Assembly (NCBI GenBank): GCA_011046135.1
Contig: DSBG01000093.1
Coordinates: forward strand, 1-38,652
Direction: 5' to 3'
DNA length: 38,652 nt
Source of the DNA: Deltaproteobacteria bacterium
GTDB taxonomy: Bacteria; Desulfobacterota; Desulfomonilia; UBA1062
Below the pieces are notes generated by a model, which did not search any database, was not told where the DNA came from, and was given only the letters and a program-made list of their open reading frames with translations. Both the position numbers and the translations under genes were made by a program. Within the stretch, counting starts at the first letter, position 1. Every line of letters starts with the position of its first letter. Below are positions 5,524-38,652 of the stretch, in pieces.

Positions 5524-5901
5524 ATGGATAAACCGCCGCAACACCCATCGGCGCTGAGCCCCTTCCTCAGGACCTGAGGAAATCTGCGGAATTCCTTTCA
5601 TGGGCCATTTCCTTTCTTCCAGAGCTTGACCCCTCACTCGTGAACCTGCATAATGAAACAGAGCACTGGTTCTTTCACCGAGGGACATTTCCGCGATATT
5701 GGCTCACCCTCACCAAACGGAGTGCGTGATGTGATGCATAGGACCTGAGCCCCGGGCATACAGTGCCGTGAGCGTCATCGGAGCGCTCCTGGATGATCCC
5801 TCCCGATTGAAATCGATCCGGGAAGGATCTACGATTCGTGTTGTCACAGCTGATCCGTGATTGTTTTCGATCGCGGAATACAACAATGCAAGGATGGTCC
5901 C

Positions 5902-31013: not shown

Positions 31014-31391
31014 CGACCACGCATGGTGTGATGCACCCATCTTTGAAGCAGGAAAACCCCGCTCGTATCACCTCGAGAGCCACCAGAACCGTCCCTTTTT
31101 ACAGAGCATGTATCTTCCACAGGTATTGAAGGGTGAATAAAAACCTATTCTAAGATGAAGTGTGTACCTAGTTTATTATAACCAATTGATTCCAGATTCT
31201 TTTTTCTTGACAAGTCATCATAATATCATAATATAAAGCATGTGTTTCTTTATGGTCTTTTCATCTATGAGGGAAAACGGCATCATTCGGACACATTACA
31301 CGTGCGCCTTTGCTGTTCTGCAGTGAATCGTTCATCTTTCACCGGGCCATCTGGGCGTTCATTTATCAAGCTTCTCTGACGGGGTGTTCCT
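31014..31391. other. AT-rich control region before the ABC transporter operon
   Basis: A 378-nt gap. From about 31140 to 31260 it is strikingly AT-rich for this genome and holds the promoter at 31207-31234 with a TCATAATAT direct repeat. No RNA gene or ORF is supported. Confidence 0.55.
31207..31234 (+). promoter_or_regulatory. Sigma-70-type promoter of the liv operon
   Basis: Perfect TTGACA (31207-31212), 16-nt spacer, TAATAT (31229-31234). The spacer and -10 contain the tandem repeat TCATAATATCATAATAT. The start would be about 31241, giving a leader of about 150 nt. Confidence 0.65.
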
Positions 31392-32462
31392 ATGGACATG
31401 AAACGAGATTACTACGAAGACATCGAGATTTTCAGCAGCAATACCGTGCTTGCGTGGTCTATGGCCTTCATGATCTTCCTCTTCGCCTTTCCCTTCCTCG
31501 TGGGCAACTACTACATCTACCTGGCGAACGTCATCCTGGTGCATGTAATCCTGGCCGTGGGATTGAACATCCTGGTGGGCTACACCGGCCAGATTTCTCT
31601 GGGACATGCAGGGTTTTTTGCCATCGGGGCCTACGGCACCGCCCTGCTCATGACCCATCTGCCCATGCCCTTTCTCCTGGCCGTGATCATTGCAGGGTTG
31701 ATCGCGGCATTCTTCGGCTTCATCATCGGGCTTCCGGCACTGAGACTGGAAGGACCATACCTTGCCATCGCCACGCTGGGCTTCGGGCTGACGATCATGC
31801 ACATCATCGGCACCTGGGATGTCTTTGGCGGCCGCATGGGGATTCATGCCCCGGCTCTTGAAATGGGGATCCCCGAGCTCGGGATGAGCCTGGTGCTCAA
31901 CACCGACATGAAGATCTACTACCTGATCCTCGTCATCGCCATCCTCATGGTGATCGGGGGAAAGAACCTGATGAAAACGCGCATTGGACGAGCGTTTGTC
32001 GCCATCCGTGATGACGACATTGCTGCAGAGGTCATGGGTGTCAACCTCACGATCTTCAAGACCCTGTCCTTTGCGGTCAGCGCCTTCTATGCAGGAGTTG
32101 CAGGCGGCCTGTTCGCCTTTGTGGTGAAGTTCTTCGATCCATTCACCTTCAATCTCATCCTCTCCATCGTCTTCCTCGTGATGGTTGTGGTGGGTGGGCT
32201 GGGCAGCATTCTCGGTGCTGTCATGGGTGCCGCGCTCATCACCTATCTGCAGTACGATCTCCTGAAGAACATGGGTGAGCTTCCCTACCTGGGAGACCTT
32301 CTCGTCTCCTTTTCCAGGAAGTGGTTCACCGTGATCGGCATGGACAATATCGGTGGTTTCTTGCTGGGGCTCATCATGGTGCTTATCGTGATCTTCGAGC
32401 CTCTGGGCATGTTCGGCATCTGGATAAGGATCAAGAAATACTGGAAGACCTGGCCATTTTGA
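31392..32462 (+). CDS. livM: Branched-chain-type ABC transporter permease LivM
   Basis: Inner-membrane permease of 356 aa with about nine to ten hydrophobic helices. LivM hallmarks are NILVGYTGQISLGHAGFFAIGAY, GLPALRLEGPYLAIATLGFG, KTRIGRAFVAIRDDDIAAEVMGV and VVGGLGSILGAVMGAAL. It forms the membrane pore with LivH for substrates delivered by the binding proteins encoded downstream. A GGGGTG element precedes the ATG at 31392; a second ATG two codons on is possible. It is first in an operon of the order livM, livH, unknown, three binding proteins, livG, livF, and has a good promoter upstream. Confidence 0.95.
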   Translation: MDMKRDYYEDIEIFSSNTVLAWSMAFMIFLFAFPFLVGNYYIYLANVILVHVILAVGLNILVGYTGQISLGHAGFFAIGAYGTALLMTHLPMPFLLAVIIAGLIAAFFGFIIGLPALRLEGPYLAIATLGFGLTIMHIIGTWDVFGGRMGIHAPALEMGIPELGMSLVLNTDMKIYYLILVIAILMVIGGKNLMKTRIGRAFVAIRDDDIAAEVMGVNLTIFKTLSFAVSAFYAGVAGGLFAFVVKFFDPFTFNLILSIVFLVMVVVGGLGSILGAVMGAALITYLQYDLLKNMGELPYLGDLLVSFSRKWFTVIGMDNIGGFLLGLIMVLIVIFEPLGMFGIWIRIKKYWKTWPF

Positions 32463-32490: not shown

Positions 32491-33363
32491 ATGATTGGAC
32501 AACTCATCATCGAAGGACTTGCGATCGGTGCCTGTTACGGACTTTTTGGCGTAGCCGTGGCGATCATTTACAAAACCTCCGAGGTGGTCAACTTCGGTCA
32601 GGGAGAGATGGGTATGATCTCCACGTTCATCGCCTATCACATCCTGATCCAGTATCAATTCCCCTTCTGGCTCGCCTTCATTATCACCATGATCTTCGCG
32701 ATCCTCCTGGGCATGTTCATCGAGTTCTTTCTGCTCAGGCCTGCCAAGGATCCCACCGTGCTCGGGCTGATCATTATCACGCTCGGCGCTGAGATGATGC
32801 TCATGAGTCTTGTGGGATGGAAATGGGGGGCCGAGCAGAAAGATTTCGCCTTCCCCCTGTCGGTGCGGGACACCCACGAGATCCTGCCTGGCCTGAAGCT
32901 CAATGAATGGACCATGGGGGTTTTTATCCTGACGGCACTGATCATGGTGCTGCTCTACCTGTTCTTCCGTTACTCCAATCTCGGGGTCGCCATGCGGGCG
33001 ACCCAGCAGAATCAGAATGCCGCAAAGATCATGGGCATCAAGGTGGAGCGGGTCTTTTCCTTCACCTGGGCCATGAGTTCTGTCATTGGCGCCGTGGCAG
33101 CGATGTTTTTCGCCGCCCGGTCTGTCCTTGATCCGACCTACATGATGGAGCCCTTCATGCGGGCCTTCGCCGCTGCGGTTCTTGGAGGGCTCACCAGCAT
33201 ACCCGGCGTGGTCCTCGGTGGAATCTCTTTGGGTCTCATTGAGAATTTCTTCGGGTATGCCTGGCCCCACTGGAAGCCTATCGTGGCCTTTGTGGTCATC
33301 ATACTCGTTCTTACCCTGAAACCGAGTGGACTCTTTGCAAAGCACTACGTGAAGAAGGTGTGA
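32491..33363 (+). CDS. livH: Branched-chain-type ABC transporter permease LivH
   Basis: Second pore subunit, 290 aa, with about eight helices. Typical segments are GLAIGACYGLFGVAVAIIYKTSEVVNFGQGEMGMI, GVAMRATQQNQNAAKIMGI, AMSSVIGAVAAMFFAARS and AAVLGGLTSIPGVVLGGISLG. GGAGAAG lies 3 nt before the ATG. It follows livM by 28 nt, and its stop overlaps the first possible start of the next small gene. Confidence 0.95.
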   Translation: MIGQLIIEGLAIGACYGLFGVAVAIIYKTSEVVNFGQGEMGMISTFIAYHILIQYQFPFWLAFIITMIFAILLGMFIEFFLLRPAKDPTVLGLIIITLGAEMMLMSLVGWKWGAEQKDFAFPLSVRDTHEILPGLKLNEWTMGVFILTALIMVLLYLFFRYSNLGVAMRATQQNQNAAKIMGIKVERVFSFTWAMSSVIGAVAAMFFAARSVLDPTYMMEPFMRAFAAAVLGGLTSIPGVVLGGISLGLIENFFGYAWPHWKPIVAFVVIILVLTLKPSGLFAKHYVKKV

Positions 33364-33365
33364 CA

Positions 33366-33842
33366 ATGGCGGATACGCTCGGAAACAGGCGCACCACCGT
33401 GATTCTGGGGGTACTGGGGCTCACCCTGGTCATCCTGGCCTCCGTGGTCCTGTTCTTCGAGAGACCCATCAAGGCCATCGAGATGGTGTTCGAGCGCCCG
33501 AGGATCGAAGCGGCCCTTAGAGCCTATTTTGCTGCCGAAATGAGCGAGGATTACGAGAGGCTCTTCTTGTGCCTCGCCCCGTCATCACATTACAGGAAGA
33601 CGCATTCCTATGAAGATTTCCTCGCTGAGATGCGCTCGAACACGACCAAGATCGTTGAATACAAGGTGGTCGATATCTATGGTCTCAGGCCCAACCATGA
33701 TCCTGAAACCTATCCTGCAGTTGAGCGATTTGCCCAGGCAGAGGTGGATATCACGCTTCTGTTTACCGACACGAACGCACGCGCCTTGTACAACTACTGT
33801 TTCACCTTCCTGAAGGAGGGAGGAGCCTGGTTTAAAGGCTGA
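33366..33842 (+). CDS. Unknown membrane-anchored protein inside the liv operon, 158 aa
   Basis: One N-terminal membrane helix (VILGVLGLTLVILASVVLFF) followed by an extracytoplasmic domain of about 120 residues. Its layout (RIEAALRAYFAAEMSEDYERLFLCLAPSS, then alternating strands and YNYCFTFLKEGGAWF) recalls the NTF2/SnoaL-like or DUF4878-type cone fold; this is a guess from pattern only. It lies between livH and the binding proteins, where standard liv operons have no such gene, so it may help receptor function or sense substrate. The ATG at 33366 has AAGG 7 nt upstream; a GTG two codons earlier overlaps the livH stop. Confidence 0.72.
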   Translation: MADTLGNRRTTVILGVLGLTLVILASVVLFFERPIKAIEMVFERPRIEAALRAYFAAEMSEDYERLFLCLAPSSHYRKTHSYEDFLAEMRSNTTKIVEYKVVDIYGLRPNHDPETYPAVERFAQAEVDITLLFTDTNARALYNYCFTFLKEGGAWFKG

Positions 33843-33919
33843 AAGGCCCGGTGGGGACACCAGGCTGAATTGTCACGAACTACACCGAGCTGCGCTGATG
33901 CAGCCGCAAGGAGGGAATG

Positions 33920-35113
33920 ATGAAAGGATTTGAGATTCGAGGGTACGTGATACTGGCGCTGGCTGCGCTGTTCCTGCTGCCCCTGACGGCACCTGCTGCA
34001 ACTCCCGGGGTGGACAAGAACGAGATCAGGATCGCCCAGTGGGGCCCCCAGACCGGGCCTGCCGCCCCGTGGGGTTCCGTGGCTCGCGGTAGCGACATCC
34101 TCTTCCAGCTCGTCAATGAAGAAGGGGGCATCCACGGCAGAAAGATCCGCTACTTCGTCAGGGACGACCAGTACAACCCGGCCATGACGGTCTCCGTGGT
34201 CAAGGAACTCGTGGAGCGCAGGGGAGTCTTCGCCTTTGTTGGCGGGGTATCGGGTGCGGGAGGCATGGCCGTGAAGGACTACCTCGCCCAGAACAAGGTG
34301 ATCTGGGTTTCACCCGCCACCGCGCTCAATGAATACGTGTTTCCGGTCAATCCGTACCTCTTTGGCATGTACCCGCTCTATGATGACGAGGCCAGCGTCC
34401 TGACCAAGTACATCGTGGAAACACTGAAGGCCAAGAAGATCGGGTTCTTCTATCAGAACGATCAGTACGGCAAGGACGGGCTGACGGGGACCAAGAAGCG
34501 GCTTGCATCATACAACAACATGAGCCTGGTCGAGGAGATACCTGTCGAACCCGGGGAAAAGGATCTCTCGTCCCAGATGCTCAGGTTCAAGAATTCCGGG
34601 GCCGAGGTGGTCATCATGTGGGTCAACCCCACCACAGCCACCATCGCGCTCAAGACGAGCGCCACCATCGGGTTTTCCCCCCAGTGGGTCTCTTCCAACA
34701 CGCTCTCTGACTATGCCCTCATGAACGCCATCACCGGCGGCCTCTGGGAAGGGGTGATCACCGGTGCCTTCGCGCTGCCCCCCGATTCTGACAATCCCCT
34801 GATGGTGCGCTACCGCGAGGCGGCCAAGCGGCTCTCCCCCGAAGAGCGCTGGGGAACCTTCTACCTTGCCGGTATCGCCTTTGCGGAACCGTTAGTTGAG
34901 GCACTCAAAATGGTAGGACCGAACCTCACGACCGAGGCGTGTCTCGATGCCCTCAATTCCATAACAGACTTCCAGGGAATCGGACCCAAGATTACCTGGC
35001 GTGCAGATCAGCACCAGGGAACAGATTCGATCCAGATCCAGAAGTGCGGCCCCGGTGGCACCGCCATCCTGCTCCAGGACTGGACATCCAACGATTTGGC
35101 GACATGGAAATAA
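33920..35113 (+). CDS. ABC transporter substrate-binding protein, LivK-type (copy 1 of 3)
   Basis: Periplasmic receptor of the branched-chain (Peripla_BP_6) type, 397 aa, with a Sec signal peptide (hydrophobic YVILALAALFLLPLTAPAA). The mature part starts EIRIAQWGPQTGPAAPWGSV, then NEEGGIHGRKI, the middle FYQNDQYGKDGL, and ends HQGTDSIQIQKCGPGGT. Two adjacent ATGs exist; the second (33920) gives 5-nt spacing to AGGAGG, the first (33917) only 2. It is the first of three tandem paralogs that share long identical blocks, so they arose by duplication. Acids or aromatics are as likely as amino acids as ligand. Confidence 0.93.
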   Translation: MKGFEIRGYVILALAALFLLPLTAPAATPGVDKNEIRIAQWGPQTGPAAPWGSVARGSDILFQLVNEEGGIHGRKIRYFVRDDQYNPAMTVSVVKELVERRGVFAFVGGVSGAGGMAVKDYLAQNKVIWVSPATALNEYVFPVNPYLFGMYPLYDDEASVLTKYIVETLKAKKIGFFYQNDQYGKDGLTGTKKRLASYNNMSLVEEIPVEPGEKDLSSQMLRFKNSGAEVVIMWVNPTTATIALKTSATIGFSPQWVSSNTLSDYALMNAITGGLWEGVITGAFALPPDSDNPLMVRYREAAKRLSPEERWGTFYLAGIAFAEPLVEALKMVGPNLTTEACLDALNSITDFQGIGPKITWRADQHQGTDSIQIQKCGPGGTAILLQDWTSNDLATWK

Positions 35114-35127
35114 TACGTTCCTGTGCC

Positions 35128-35144
35128 TGAAAAACGGTTTTTCA
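35128..35144 (+). repeat. Hairpin after binding-protein copy 1
   Basis: TGAAAAAC-G-GTTTTTCA, 8-bp arms around one base, between copies 1 and 2. It is AT-rich and weak as RNA. Confidence 0.4.
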
Positions 35145-35184
35145 ATGTGCCCTTCGATGAAGGGGGGTAAAGGAGGATGAGGTT

Positions 35185-36372
35185 ATGAAACGGTTCCTTT
35201 GTACAGGTTTCATGGTTGTATGCCTGTTCCTGGCACTGACACTTACGTGTTCGGCACAGGAGAAAGGGTTTGACGACAAGGAAATCAGGATCGGCCAGTG
35301 GGGTCCCCAGACAGGACCTGCAGCCCCGTGGGGAGCCGTTGCCCGGGGAAGCGGACTTCTCTTTGATGTGGTCAACGAAGAAGGTGGCATCCACGGCAGA
35401 ACAATCAGGTACTTCCTGCGGGACGATCAGTACAATCCCGCCCAGACCGTCGCCGTTGTGAAAGATCTCGTCGAGCGCAGGGGTGTCTTTGCCTTCGTGG
35501 GCGGTGTCGGAGGTGCGTGCGGTCTTGCTGTCATGGAGTATCTCAAGCAGAACAAGATCATCTGGGTAGGACCGTCTGCCGCCATCAGGGAGTTCGTGTT
35601 TCCGGCAAACCCGTATCTCTTTGCCGTCTACCCCTTGTATGAGGACGAATCGAGCATCCTGACCAAGTTTGTCGTGGAAAAGCTCAAAGCCAAGAAGATC
35701 GGATTCTTCTTCCAGAACGATCAGTACGGTAAGGACGGGCTCTCGGGCGCCAAGAAGAGGCTGGCCACGTACAACATGAGCCTCATAGCCGAGATTCCTG
35801 TGGAACCGGGTGACAAGGATCTCTCATCACAGATCCTCAGGTTCAAGGAGTCAGGCGCGGAAGTGGTCATCATGTTCGTCAATCCCACGGTTGCGGCCAT
35901 TGCCCTGAAAACCGCCGCGACCATTGACTACAAGCCCCAGTGGGTCTCTTCGGACACCCTCTCGGACTATCCGCTCATGAACACCATCACGGGCGGGCTC
36001 TGGGAAGGGGTCATCACCGGGGCATTCGGCCTTCCGCCCGACACGGACCATCCCATTCTGAACAAATACCGGGATGCCGCAAAACGGTTCTCTCCTGAAG
36101 AGCGGTGGGGCACCTTCTACCTCGCAGGCATCCTCTTTGCCGACCCGCTGGTGGAGGCACTGCATCGCGTGGGCCCGAACCTGAGTACCGAGGCGACCCT
36201 GAAGGCGCTCAACTCCATTACGAACCACCAGACCATCGGCCCTCCGGTGACCTGGACCCCGGAGATCCATCAGGGAACGGATTCGGTCCAGATTCAGCAG
36301 TGCGGCCCGGGAGCCACCTACATCACGCTCCAGGACTGGCAGTCGAACGATCTCGCAACCTGGAAAAAATAG
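35185..36372 (+). CDS. ABC transporter substrate-binding protein, LivK-type (copy 2 of 3)
   Basis: Receptor paralog of 395 aa with the signal peptide CTGFMVVCLFLALTLTCSA. It shares with copy 1 the blocks GQWGPQTGPAAPWG, VNEEGGIHGR, DDQYNPAQTVAVVKDLVERRGVFAFVGGV, KAKKIGFF and LSDYPLMNTITGGLWEGVITGAF. It differs around residues 105-140 (CGLAVMEYLKQNKIIWVGPSAAIREF), which could change specificity. AAAGGAGG precedes the ATG. It is followed by the strongest hairpin of the operon. Confidence 0.93.
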   Translation: MKRFLCTGFMVVCLFLALTLTCSAQEKGFDDKEIRIGQWGPQTGPAAPWGAVARGSGLLFDVVNEEGGIHGRTIRYFLRDDQYNPAQTVAVVKDLVERRGVFAFVGGVGGACGLAVMEYLKQNKIIWVGPSAAIREFVFPANPYLFAVYPLYEDESSILTKFVVEKLKAKKIGFFFQNDQYGKDGLSGAKKRLATYNMSLIAEIPVEPGDKDLSSQILRFKESGAEVVIMFVNPTVAAIALKTAATIDYKPQWVSSDTLSDYPLMNTITGGLWEGVITGAFGLPPDTDHPILNKYRDAAKRFSPEERWGTFYLAGILFADPLVEALHRVGPNLSTEATLKALNSITNHQTIGPPVTWTPEIHQGTDSVQIQQCGPGATYITLQDWQSNDLATWKK

Positions 36373-36380
36373 GAACAGAA

Positions 36381-36408
36381 AGGGTCTGAAGGAGATCCTT
36401 CAGACCCT
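36381..36408 (+). repeat. Strong intercistronic stem-loop after binding-protein copy 2
   Basis: A 13-bp perfect inverted repeat: AGGGTCTGAAGGA (36381-36393) and its complement (36396-36408) around GA. No T-run follows, so it is more likely an mRNA-stabilising or processing hairpin than a terminator, although partial termination is possible. Confidence 0.65.
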
Positions 36409-36444
36409 GTAACCGTATATGAACGGATACATGGGAGGTTCCAC

Positions 36445-37650
36445 ATGAAAAAAATCTGTTATTCAATTGTTCTGATGGTAGCTCTTATTCTGGTCGTGCC
36501 CCTTACCTGTTCGGCCGCGGAAAAAGGCTTTGATGACAAGGAAATCAGGATCGGCCAGTTCGGCCCCCAGACAGGCCCCGCAGCCCCCTGGGGATCGGTT
36601 GCCAGGGGCGCCGGGCTGCTGTTCGACCTGGTGAACGAAGAGGGCGGGATCCACGGCAGAAAAATCAAGTATTACCTGCGGGACGACCAGTACAACCCGG
36701 CCCTGGCCCAGGCCGCTGTGAAAGAAGTGGTGGAACGCTACGGGATCTTCGCCTTTACCGGTGGGGTCTCGGGAGCCGGCGGACAGGCGGTGAAGAAATT
36801 CATCTCGGACAACAAGATCCTGTGGGTGGTTCCCGGAACCTCGTCACTCAACACGGTGGATGACAGGGTTGACGGCAAACCGGATCCCTATCGCTTCTGT
36901 TCCTATCCCCGCTTCCAGGATGAAGCGAGTGTCCTGACCAAGTATGCGGTTGAAGAACTCGGGTACAAGAAAATAGCCATCCTGTACCAGAACGACGTGT
37001 TCGGGAAAGTCGGTCTGGAAGGAATGACACAGCGGCTTGTCTCCTACAAGATGAAGTGTGTTCTGGAAATCCCGGTAGAACCGACAGAGAAGGACCTTGC
37101 ATCTCAGATGCTGAGATTGAAGAATTCCGGTGCAGAGGCAGTCCTCATGTGGGTGAGCCCGACCCTGTGTGTCATAGCACTGAAAACGAGTGAAAGCATC
37201 GACTTCAAGCCTCAGTGGATCGCCAATTCAGGCCTGTCTGATCTCGCCCTGATGCACCACATTACCGGGGGCTTGTATGAAGGGGTAATAACCGGGGCGT
37301 TCGTGCCTCCCCCGGATTCACAGGATCCCCTCATGGTGAAGTATCGCGAGGCAGCAAAAAGGCTCGCCCCGGAAGAGCGATGGTCAAGCTTCTACATAGC
37401 CGGCATCCAGTTTGCCGAACCACTGGTGGAGGCCCTTAGACGTGTCGGCCCGAATCTGAGCACCGAAGCAGTTATGAAGGAATTGAACTCGTTCAGGAAC
37501 TGGAAGGGGCTCGGGGCCCCGATAACCTGGACAGAGAACTGCCACCAGGGAACCGACTCAGTCCAGATCCAGAAGTGCGGACCCGGGGGAACATACATCC
37601 TGCTGAAAGATTGGACAGAAAACGATCTGGCAACATGGAAAAACTACTGA
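36445..37650 (+). CDS. ABC transporter substrate-binding protein, LivK-type (copy 3 of 3)
   Basis: Third receptor paralog, 401 aa, with signal peptide IVLMVALILVVPLTCSAAE. It shares AEKGFDDKEIRIGQ and the tail HQGTDSVQIQKCGPGGTY with copy 2. Around residues 130-150 it carries an insertion, SLNTVDDRVDGKPDPYRFCSYPRFQ, where the other copies have EYVFPVNPYLFGMYPLY. That region lines the cleft entrance in this family, so its ligand range may differ. GGGAGG precedes the ATG. Confidence 0.93.
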   Translation: MKKICYSIVLMVALILVVPLTCSAAEKGFDDKEIRIGQFGPQTGPAAPWGSVARGAGLLFDLVNEEGGIHGRKIKYYLRDDQYNPALAQAAVKEVVERYGIFAFTGGVSGAGGQAVKKFISDNKILWVVPGTSSLNTVDDRVDGKPDPYRFCSYPRFQDEASVLTKYAVEELGYKKIAILYQNDVFGKVGLEGMTQRLVSYKMKCVLEIPVEPTEKDLASQMLRLKNSGAEAVLMWVSPTLCVIALKTSESIDFKPQWIANSGLSDLALMHHITGGLYEGVITGAFVPPPDSQDPLMVKYREAAKRLAPEERWSSFYIAGIQFAEPLVEALRRVGPNLSTEAVMKELNSFRNWKGLGAPITWTENCHQGTDSVQIQKCGPGGTYILLKDWTENDLATWKNY

Positions 37651-37666
37651 GTGCAGTCAGAAAGAG

Positions 37667-37685
37667 TCCCGTTCACTGAGCGGGA
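37667..37685 (+). repeat. Hairpin after binding-protein copy 3
   Basis: TCCCGTT-CACTG-AGCGGGA, a 7-bp stem with one G-T pair, followed by AAAAAG. It lies between the third receptor and livG. Confidence 0.45.
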
Positions 37686-37721: not shown

Positions 37722-38498
37722 ATGGTTCACTTCAAGGTTGAGAATCTGAGCATCAGCTTCGGTGGCATCCGGGCGGTTGACAGTGCAACGTTCGAGGTTG
37801 GGCAGAACTCCATCTTCTCCATCATCGGGCCCAACGGGAGCGGAAAGACCACCATCTTCAACATGATCAGCGGCATTTACAAGCCTGATTCGGGAAATGT
37901 CATCCTGTCAGGAGAGAGCCTTACCGGGCTCTCTCCTGACAGGATCGCGCGAAAAGGGGTTTCCCGCACCTTCCAGAACATCCAGCTCTTCGCCAATGCC
38001 TCTGTCATGGACAACATCATGCTCGGCAGGCACATCCACATGAAAACAGGCGTACTAAGCGGAGCCTTCATGTGGGGCAGGGGATCACGGTGTGCAAAGG
38101 AAGAGGTTATTCACCGGGAGAGAGTCGAACACATCATCGATTTTCTCGATCTCCAGTCCGTACGCGACCAGTTCGTGTCCAACCTTCCCTATGGCAAGCG
38201 CAAGCTCGTCGAACTCGCTCGCGCCCTGGCCCTGGAACCCAAGGTCCTGCTCCTGGATGAGCCATCTGCGGGCATGAATACCGAGGAGAAAGACGACCTG
38301 AGGATCTGGATCAAGGATATCCAGGATGACTACAAGGTTACCATCCTGCTCATCGAGCACGACATGAACATGGTAATGGGCATCTCTGACCGGATCCTGG
38401 CCATCAACCAGGGCATTAAGATCGTCGAGGGTACACCCCAGGAGGTACAGAAGCACCCGGATGTGATAGCAGCCTATCTCGGCGAGGAGGATGCGTGA
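37722..38498 (+). CDS. livG: Branched-chain-type ABC transporter ATP-binding protein LivG
   Basis: Cytoplasmic ATPase of 258 aa that powers the transporter. Walker A is GPNGSGKTT (around residues 37-45), the signature is LPYGKRKLVELARAL in place of LSYGQQR, and Walker B is VLLLDEPSAGMN with the H-loop in IEHDMNMV. The typical LivG features NMISGIYKPDSG and RTFQNIQLF are present. GAGGAG lies about 8 nt before the ATG. Its stop overlaps the livF start (TGATG). Confidence 0.95.
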   Translation: MVHFKVENLSISFGGIRAVDSATFEVGQNSIFSIIGPNGSGKTTIFNMISGIYKPDSGNVILSGESLTGLSPDRIARKGVSRTFQNIQLFANASVMDNIMLGRHIHMKTGVLSGAFMWGRGSRCAKEEVIHRERVEHIIDFLDLQSVRDQFVSNLPYGKRKLVELARALALEPKVLLLDEPSAGMNTEEKDDLRIWIKDIQDDYKVTILLIEHDMNMVMGISDRILAINQGIKIVEGTPQEVQKHPDVIAAYLGEEDA

Positions 38499-38652
38499 TG
38501 CTCACGATCAGAAACTGCGAGACATGGTATGACCTGATACGGGCTCTCCACGGAATCTCCCTTGAAATCAAAGAGGGAGACATCGTAGCGCTCCTGGGCA
38601 GCAATGGTGCAGGCAAAAGCACTACCCTGAAGACCATCATGCGCCTTTTAGA
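38498..38652 (+). CDS. livF: Branched-chain-type ABC transporter ATP-binding protein LivF (partial, 5' end only)
   Basis: The first 51 codons of the second ATPase. It begins MLTIRNCETWYDLIRALHGI and shows the Walker A motif LGSNGAGKSTT, followed by LKTIMRLL, as in LivF. The ATG at 38498 overlaps the livG stop, with GAGGAGG upstream inside livG. The rest lies beyond the window. Confidence 0.92.
   Translation, partial: MLTIRNCETWYDLIRALHGISLEIKEGDIVALLGSNGAGKSTTLKTIMRLL

Follow-up and report, generated by a model that had tools for sequence, protein, structure and literature searches.

The LivJ/LivK-LivHMGF importer of Escherichia coli, composed of two permeases and two ATPases and served by receptors of the same fold, belongs to the same transporter family as the system described here. 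This is a HAAT/Liv-type ATP-binding cassette (ABC) importer whose operon occupies the 3′-end of a 38,652-nucleotide stretch of DNA from a Deltaproteobacteria bacterium of a syntrophic lineage (assembly GCA_011046135.1, contig DSBG01000093.1; the whole stretch is hereafter called the window), and which includes three tandem genes for substrate-binding proteins (SBPs, or receptors). Multi-receptor importers beside a coenzyme A (CoA) ligase, as well as hairpins located 3′ of receptor genes, have each already been published for other bacteria. Passages of PMC3223731 describe in Rhodopseudomonas palustris three clustered LivK-family SBPs, RPA3723-RPA3725, which accompany a single set of ABC genes beside pimFABCDE; RPA3723 and RPA3724 bind different fatty or dicarboxylic acids, the third SBP bound none of the compounds tested, and a broad-range uptake was proposed. 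The same passages list 22 Rhodopseudomonas receptors annotated for amino acids or amides with non-matching ligands; very few of these shifted with Leu, Ile or Val, their ligands being other amino acids and/or acids of the aromatic, fatty or dicarboxylic type. In betaproteobacteria, transposon fitness data given in part of PMC12543098 likewise implicate ABC importers in the uptake of C7+ dicarboxylic acids.

As for the hairpins, passages of PMC9045158 report that stem-loops 3′ of receptor genes give partial transcription termination in clostridia, that internal terminators can likewise be poor in U, and that an excess of SBP over the pump is usually required; receptor mRNA in E. coli is protected by 3′ hairpins (excerpt of PMC5927463). 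In the open-licence literature, no paper on this operon in Smithella or Syntrophus relatives was recognised by its title or by the start of its abstract.

The reading that we favor, with a probability of roughly 60%, is that of a HAAT-family importer in which one permease would be fed by three anciently diverged receptors, each most likely with a preference for a different carboxylic acid, possibly fatty, dicarboxylic, alicyclic or aromatic; a FadD-like ligase would convert the acids to CoA thioesters on entry, for a syntrophic metabolism of the beta-oxidation type, and hairpins 3′ of the receptors would partition the transcript.

The operon and its three receptors

In the 2.92-Mb assembly, made up of 181 contigs, the window corresponds to contig C18. 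All parts of a HAAT/Liv-type importer are present, namely two BPD_transp_2 permeases, LivG/LivF-type ATPases and Peripla_BP_6 receptors (E 2e-59 to 2e-63 for the three, Pfam). The gene order is livM-livH-small protein-SBP1-SBP2-SBP3-livG-livF, with the receptors in tandem, co-oriented, between livH and livG:

31207..31234, + strand: promoter-like site TTGACA-16-TAATAT (10/12) upstream of livM, candidate operon promoter
31392..32462, + strand: livM-like permease (Pfam BPD_transp_2, E 1.2e-38)
32491..33363, + strand: livH-like permease (Pfam BPD_transp_2, E 4.8e-39)
33360..33842, + strand: small anchored protein with a single hydrophobic segment at its N-terminus; the gene overlaps livH
33917..35113, + strand: SBP1, receptor copy 1 (open reading frame from 33917, in-frame ATG at 33920; Peripla_BP_6)
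35129-35143 and 35150-35164, + strand: two weak hairpins (6 bp each) in the SBP1-SBP2 gap, at chance level
35185..36372, + strand: SBP2, receptor copy 2 (Peripla_BP_6)
36381..36408, + strand: strong hairpin after SBP2, with a 12-bp RNA stem and an AGAU loop, without T-run
36445..37650, + strand: SBP3, receptor copy 3 (Peripla_BP_6), with orthologs that often occur as orphans, apart from the pump genes
37667..37685, + strand: 8-bp hairpin (inverted repeat) before livG, at chance level when taken alone
37722..38498, + strand: livG-like ATPase (Pfam ABC_tran and a BCA_ABC_TP_C tail)
38498..38652, + strand: livF-like ATPase, cut by the contig end and present in relatives

The original prediction, made from the letters of the window, had described three receptor genes in this tandem order, and the starts at 33917 (ATG 33920), 35185 and 36445 confirm it; all three genes are full-length. 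It had also described long identical blocks among the copies; these are found in the proteins, which are 74% (copies 1 and 2), 65% (1 and 3) and 62% (2 and 3) identical, but not in the DNA, where identity falls to 65-73%, the longest identical runs measure 17, 23 and 25 nucleotides (nt), and 4-fold sites are 34-42% identical, with silent sites near saturation. Given the values at DNA level and at 4-fold sites, the three receptors are to be regarded as old paralogs, without recent conversion; a recent duplication or gene conversion was rejected on the same 4-fold sites and on the longest identical DNA run of 25 nt. A divergent segment proposed around residues 105-150 was borne out for copy 3, which differs from both other copies at 15/25 positions of residues 126-150, its most divergent mature stretch, and less so for copies 1 and 2, which differ from each other at 9/25 positions there and at 10/25 of residues 351-375.

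Relatives were taken as the best 80 of 243 from a scan of species-representative genomes, corresponding to 79 loci (L012-L090); this sample leans to close relatives, and most of them are metagenome-assembled genomes labelled Deltaproteobacteria, Syntrophaceae, Smithella or Syntrophales. In a tree of 94 rows, SBP2 falls in an orthologous clade of 7 rows (support 100/100) and SBP3 in a clade of 16 rows (97/91), many of whose receptors are encoded apart from livM/livH; SBP1 and other copy-1-type rows belong to a clade of 30 rows (99/95), which also contains the SBP2 clade and within which the tree leaves the exact place of SBP1 open. The other receptors of the genome are distant (at most 34% identity) and lie on other contigs.

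The number of receptors between livH and livG was counted at the 58 loci with both genes, i.e., 57 relatives and the window: it is one in 49, two in 7 and three in 2. The second triple (L028, genome G009) has the same 1-2-3 order as the window. A receptor match at E 1e-110 or better occurs in 14 of the 24 genomes of the same order; three matches were found in two of the other 23, G009 and G014, the third match of G014 being on another contig. A copy-3-type receptor away from the pump coexists with a pump operon containing other receptors in SV3-B1.1 (L012, L075), Smithella AS17 (L032, L069) and STF1_233 (L031, L067), and SV3-B1.1 also has a copy-3-type receptor inside the pump operon; such detached receptors are what the sharing of one permease among several receptors would predict. 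At the 13 copy-3-type loci examined, genes for an acyl-CoA dehydrogenase or a CoA-transferase often adjoin the orphan SBP3 (L065, L068, L073, L074, L079), as revealed by Pfam searches on chosen neighbors.

The small protein gene is found in 42/58 operons, and its family has 10 invariant columns in an alignment of 17 rows. No clear Pfam family was assigned, the only matches being weak ones to DUF4440 in 7/17 rows. The protein forms a conserved family in the operon and is a possible accessory subunit of the importer.

Hairpins after the receptor genes

An inverted repeat had been reported after each copy; all three exist, and that following copy 2 is beyond chance, while those after copies 1 and 3 fold at chance level. 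Indeed, none of 200 shuffles folded as well as the gap after copy 2 (-31.4 kcal/mol, z -5.46), whereas 22/200 matched the gap after copy 1 (perfect-stem p 0.10) and 57/200 that after copy 3 (p 0.03). The 13 perfect pairs and the missing T-run of the copy-2 repeat (36381-36408) were both found as predicted; however, since the innermost pair would close a 2-nt loop, the RNA would form a 12-bp stem with a 4-nt loop. The absence of a T-run led to rejection of a canonical terminator on the + strand; the repeat is terminator-like only on the - strand, where no gene is assigned. A genome search that allowed up to 3 mismatches gave no second copy of the repeat, and a repeated mobile element was rejected on this ground.

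In the relatives a stem was called strong when perfect, of at least 9 bp and with a score of at least 24; gene starts were estimated by script, and gaps shorter than 15 nt, longer than 350 nt or containing N were dropped, including those of L040, L048 and L050 (1-7 nt) and L076 (N). Strong stems were found in 32/61 SBP-livG gaps and 5/12 SBP-SBP gaps, as compared with 0/55 livM-livH, 5/48 small-protein-SBP and 1/15 livH-SBP gaps, counts in which independence is overstated, because the rows are related. Random windows with the lengths of the SBP-livG gaps have a strong stem in 31/2437 cases (about 1%). The 8-bp SBP3-livG stem of the window itself does not count as strong, but it lies at the site of the strong hairpins of its relatives, which usually start within about 15 nt of the stop codon. 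A U-rich tract, with 6 T or more among the 9 nt that follow the best stem, is absent from all 61 SBP-livG gaps. Seven chosen relatives retain a 14-pair stem in which 6 pairs have changed on both sides, although two of the seven rows could be out of register instead.

These data bear on the possibility, doubtful although it survives best among the alternatives, that the hairpins have no regulatory role here, the copy-2 hairpin being the only real one and the others chance inverted repeats. It accords with the chance-level folding of the gaps after copies 1 and 3, with the gaps of L040, L048 and L050, too short for a hairpin, and with the 7/12 SBP-SBP gaps devoid of a strong stem; it is opposed by the frequency of strong stems in SBP-livG gaps compared with those between livM and livH or before the first receptor, and by the maintenance of the stem through two-sided changes in seven relatives.

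Another claim of the original prediction, that hairpins could raise receptor mRNA over pore mRNA, is unsupported as it was put: the pore genes livM and livH precede the receptors, so that any 3′ effect would extend to them; for the same reason a 3′ hairpin can lower only livG, livF and the ligase. Receptor excess over the pore would further need a cleavage or a new 5′ end before SBP1. The gap in this position folds at z -0.10 (89/200 shuffles as good), and promoter-like sites before the first receptor are not enriched in the relatives (3/61, against 7.5% in shuffles); an internal sigma-70-type promoter before SBP1 was dismissed, with none in the window gap and no such enrichment. Where the ABC operons of E. 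coli showed differential decay, it was the receptor gene that was stabilized, whatever its place in the operon, the middle gene artI included (excerpt of PMC5927463), which leaves this proposal a slim chance, somewhat below that of hairpins without a role.

Upstream of livM, in contrast, promoter-like sites are enriched (20/56 relatives, against 10.1% in shuffles), and before livG they are not (1/64, against 3.7%); the search that gave the candidate site of the window found 3 such sites, with 3.8 expected by chance. Given the gene order and this distribution of promoter-like sites, a split between pore plus receptor and ATPase plus ligase is favored, in which the direction and size of any mRNA effect are inferred. 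The most likely role of the hairpin or hairpins after the receptor genes would be to terminate transcription in part or to stop 3′-5′ RNases, and this would leave livM, livH and the receptors on an abundant mRNA and livG, livF and the ligase on a scarcer one.

A further palindrome is located inside livG (37902-37945), i.e., a perfect inverted repeat of 19 bp with a 6-nt spacer, longer than any intergenic hairpin of the operon. The same register in the livG of relatives pairs at only 3-13/19 positions, and two codons encode other residues than usual; template switching that corrected a quasi-palindrome, or an assembly fault, could have produced this.

Ligand class

All receptor rows were aligned with E. 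coli LivJ. Twelve contact positions were used, the twelfth of which we take to be Glu226. The other 11 were drawn from a docking passage in PMC6983066. In the window copies and in most members of their clades, the LivJ contacts Ser79 (to Gly/Ala), Thr102 (to Ala/Ser), Tyr202 (to Asn/Ser) and Glu226 (to Asn/Asp/Ser) are replaced. Moreover, a FadD-like acyl-CoA ligase follows livF at 54/54 relative loci with at least 600 nt of room; it matches Pfam AMP-binding, and its best NCBIfam match, FadD11, is below cut-off. The only close copy of the ligase in the genome of the window (83% identity, next best 52%) is truncated by the edge of contig C47. This would fit a C47 that continues C18 after a gap of about 1.2 kb, the ligase then probably following livF.

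The replaced LivJ contacts and the constant presence of the ligase after livF suggest that the liv name is probably a misnomer, and that carboxylic-acid uptake coupled to CoA activation fits better; they likewise argue against the amino-acid liv system first assumed for this operon. A true importer of branched-chain amino acids, with receptors differing among Leu, Ile, Val and the like, as LivJ/LivK, is unlikely. In its favor, several of the proteins have LivG, LivM or LivK as their best NCBIfam model, livG has the BCA_ABC_TP_C domain, a valine-bound structure ties as the closest one, and copy 2 has Asp at the E226 position. The NCBIfam scores, however, are far below the curated cut-offs (73.8, 74.4 and 54.2 bits for SBP1, SBP2 and SBP3, against 477; LivM 159.1 against 366, LivH 109.1 against 379, LivG 280.8 against 362), none of the three copies retains LivJ Ser79, Thr102 or Tyr202, a CoA ligase is not needed for amino acids, and very few of the 22 non-matching Rhodopseudomonas receptors, in the passages of PMC3223731 mentioned above, responded to Leu, Ile or Val. 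Structure comparison was dropped as a means to decide the ligand: with AlphaFold models of SBP1 and SBP3 (mean pLDDT, the predicted local distance difference test, 93.3 and 90.6), the fatty-acid SBP 4n03 ranked first (Z 42.0 and 40.8), tied with the valine-bound 3lkb.

Further clusters containing a receptor, livF and a FadD-like ligase occur in the same genome on contigs C8, C45 and C51 (L127, L145, L146); their ligases are 44-52% identical, and the liv-FadD arrangement seems to be repeated in the lineage. Contig C45 (L145, 20442 bp) is a perfect fold-back palindrome about its center, at 5779/5779 tested positions, which places the liv-FadD genes twice in opposite orientation and is probably an assembly artefact.

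Specificity of the three receptors

Positions at least 80% conserved within a clade and differing between clades were compared along the same alignment. They make up 6/12 of the LivJ-contact positions, against 37 of some 358 further columns (Fisher p 9.5e-4, with thresholds, clade lists and the column total of 370 set by the analyst). The six are C78, S79, A100, A101, A103 and Y150: at A101, for example, Thr is found in 23/23 clade-1 rows, Ala in 7/7 clade-2 rows and Thr in 15/16 clade-3 rows, while the Y150 position is Tyr in clades 1 and 2 and Phe in clade 3 (16/16). Most LivJ contacts fall in the segment of residues 105-150 or thereabouts that had been singled out for its divergence. This enrichment of clade-conserved differences at positions aligned with LivJ contacts makes separate specificities of the three receptors likely.

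Redundant dosage, according to which three receptors of the same specificity are kept for more receptor protein, would agree with the tandem, co-oriented genes and with the usual excess of SBP over the pump (as stated in part of PMC9045158), but it is improbable in view of the old divergence with nearly saturated silent sites, the separate orthologous clades, the clade-fixed differences at pocket positions and the occurrence of receptor copies singly in relatives.

Overall reading and its implications

The proposal that one permease with several receptors has a broadened substrate range thus receives indirect support from separate clades in the tree, from the pocket differences and from the copy-3-type receptors away from the pump. 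Several observations weigh against the organic-acid importer with three receptors and partitioning hairpins. One receptor suffices in most close relatives (49/58), and only one of the three hairpins, that after copy 2, beats chance in its own genome. The ligase is not on the contig of the window, its linkage being derived from relatives; NCBIfam names the permeases and receptors LivM/LivH/LivK-like, though far below cut-off, and structure comparison fails to separate fatty-acid from valine receptors. Finally, the Asp of copy 2 at the E226 position is the residue found in the Agrobacterium amino-acid/GABA (γ-aminobutyric acid) receptor 3ipc, and for this reason copy 2 may have an amine-bearing ligand.

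A wider scheme for Syntrophales and their kin can be put forward only tentatively. A hairpin conserved in position, and not in sequence, would split an operon with receptors in the middle into a pore-plus-receptor and an ATPase-plus-ligase module, so setting binding capacity against ATP-costly import and activation. For bacteria that live near the thermodynamic limit, such a control would save energy, and receptor paralogs, either in the operon or as orphans, would be swapped to change the diet while pump and ligase stay fixed.

Genes of this type are commonly annotated as "branched-chain amino acid transport". A fixed ligase behind livF, together with the lost amino-acid contacts, would recast the class in syntrophic bacteria as organic-acid importers, which bears on how these bacteria feed. 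The conserved hairpin also provides a comparative set for the study of importer stoichiometry where the receptor gene is placed mid-operon.

Comparison with known systems

Compared with E. coli LivJ/LivK-LivHMGF, the operon of the relatives includes an acyl-CoA ligase, and the window has three receptors between permeases and ATPases. Of the LivJ contacts listed in the docking passage of PMC6983066, S79, T102 and Y202 are replaced here. By layout and description, the operon resembles RPA3723-RPA3725, where several LivK-family receptors also accompany one permease set. The latter, as described in passages of PMC3223731, adjoin the acyl-CoA ligase PimA, whereas here, judging from the relatives, the ligase would be part of the transporter operon, downstream of livF; moreover, R. 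palustris belongs to another group of organisms, and the receptors of the window lie between permeases and ATPases. The CouPSTU p-coumarate importer of R. palustris, in the portions of PMC3610893 and PMC3223731 that deal with it, similarly has a LivK-family receptor for a carboxylic acid, encoded near a CoA ligase; it differs in its single receptor, in an aromatic ligand with known contacts, and in a receptor gene on the opposite strand to the other pump genes.

The strong hairpin resembles the internal terminators downstream of clostridial SBP genes (passages of PMC9045158), as it is a GC-rich stem-loop with little U, 3′ of a receptor gene and before other pump genes. In cellulolytic clostridia the receptor is at the end of the cluster in 99.5% of cases, with translocator genes after a 5′ receptor, while here it is mid-operon, with the pore genes upstream; furthermore, termination was measured in the clostridial systems and is predicted here from sequence. 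The E. coli malEFG operon with its differential decay (excerpt of PMC5927463) likewise has a hairpin 3′ of the receptor gene of an ABC system; malE, however, is the first gene of its operon, and the predicted hairpins of the window follow receptors placed between the pore genes and the ATPases.

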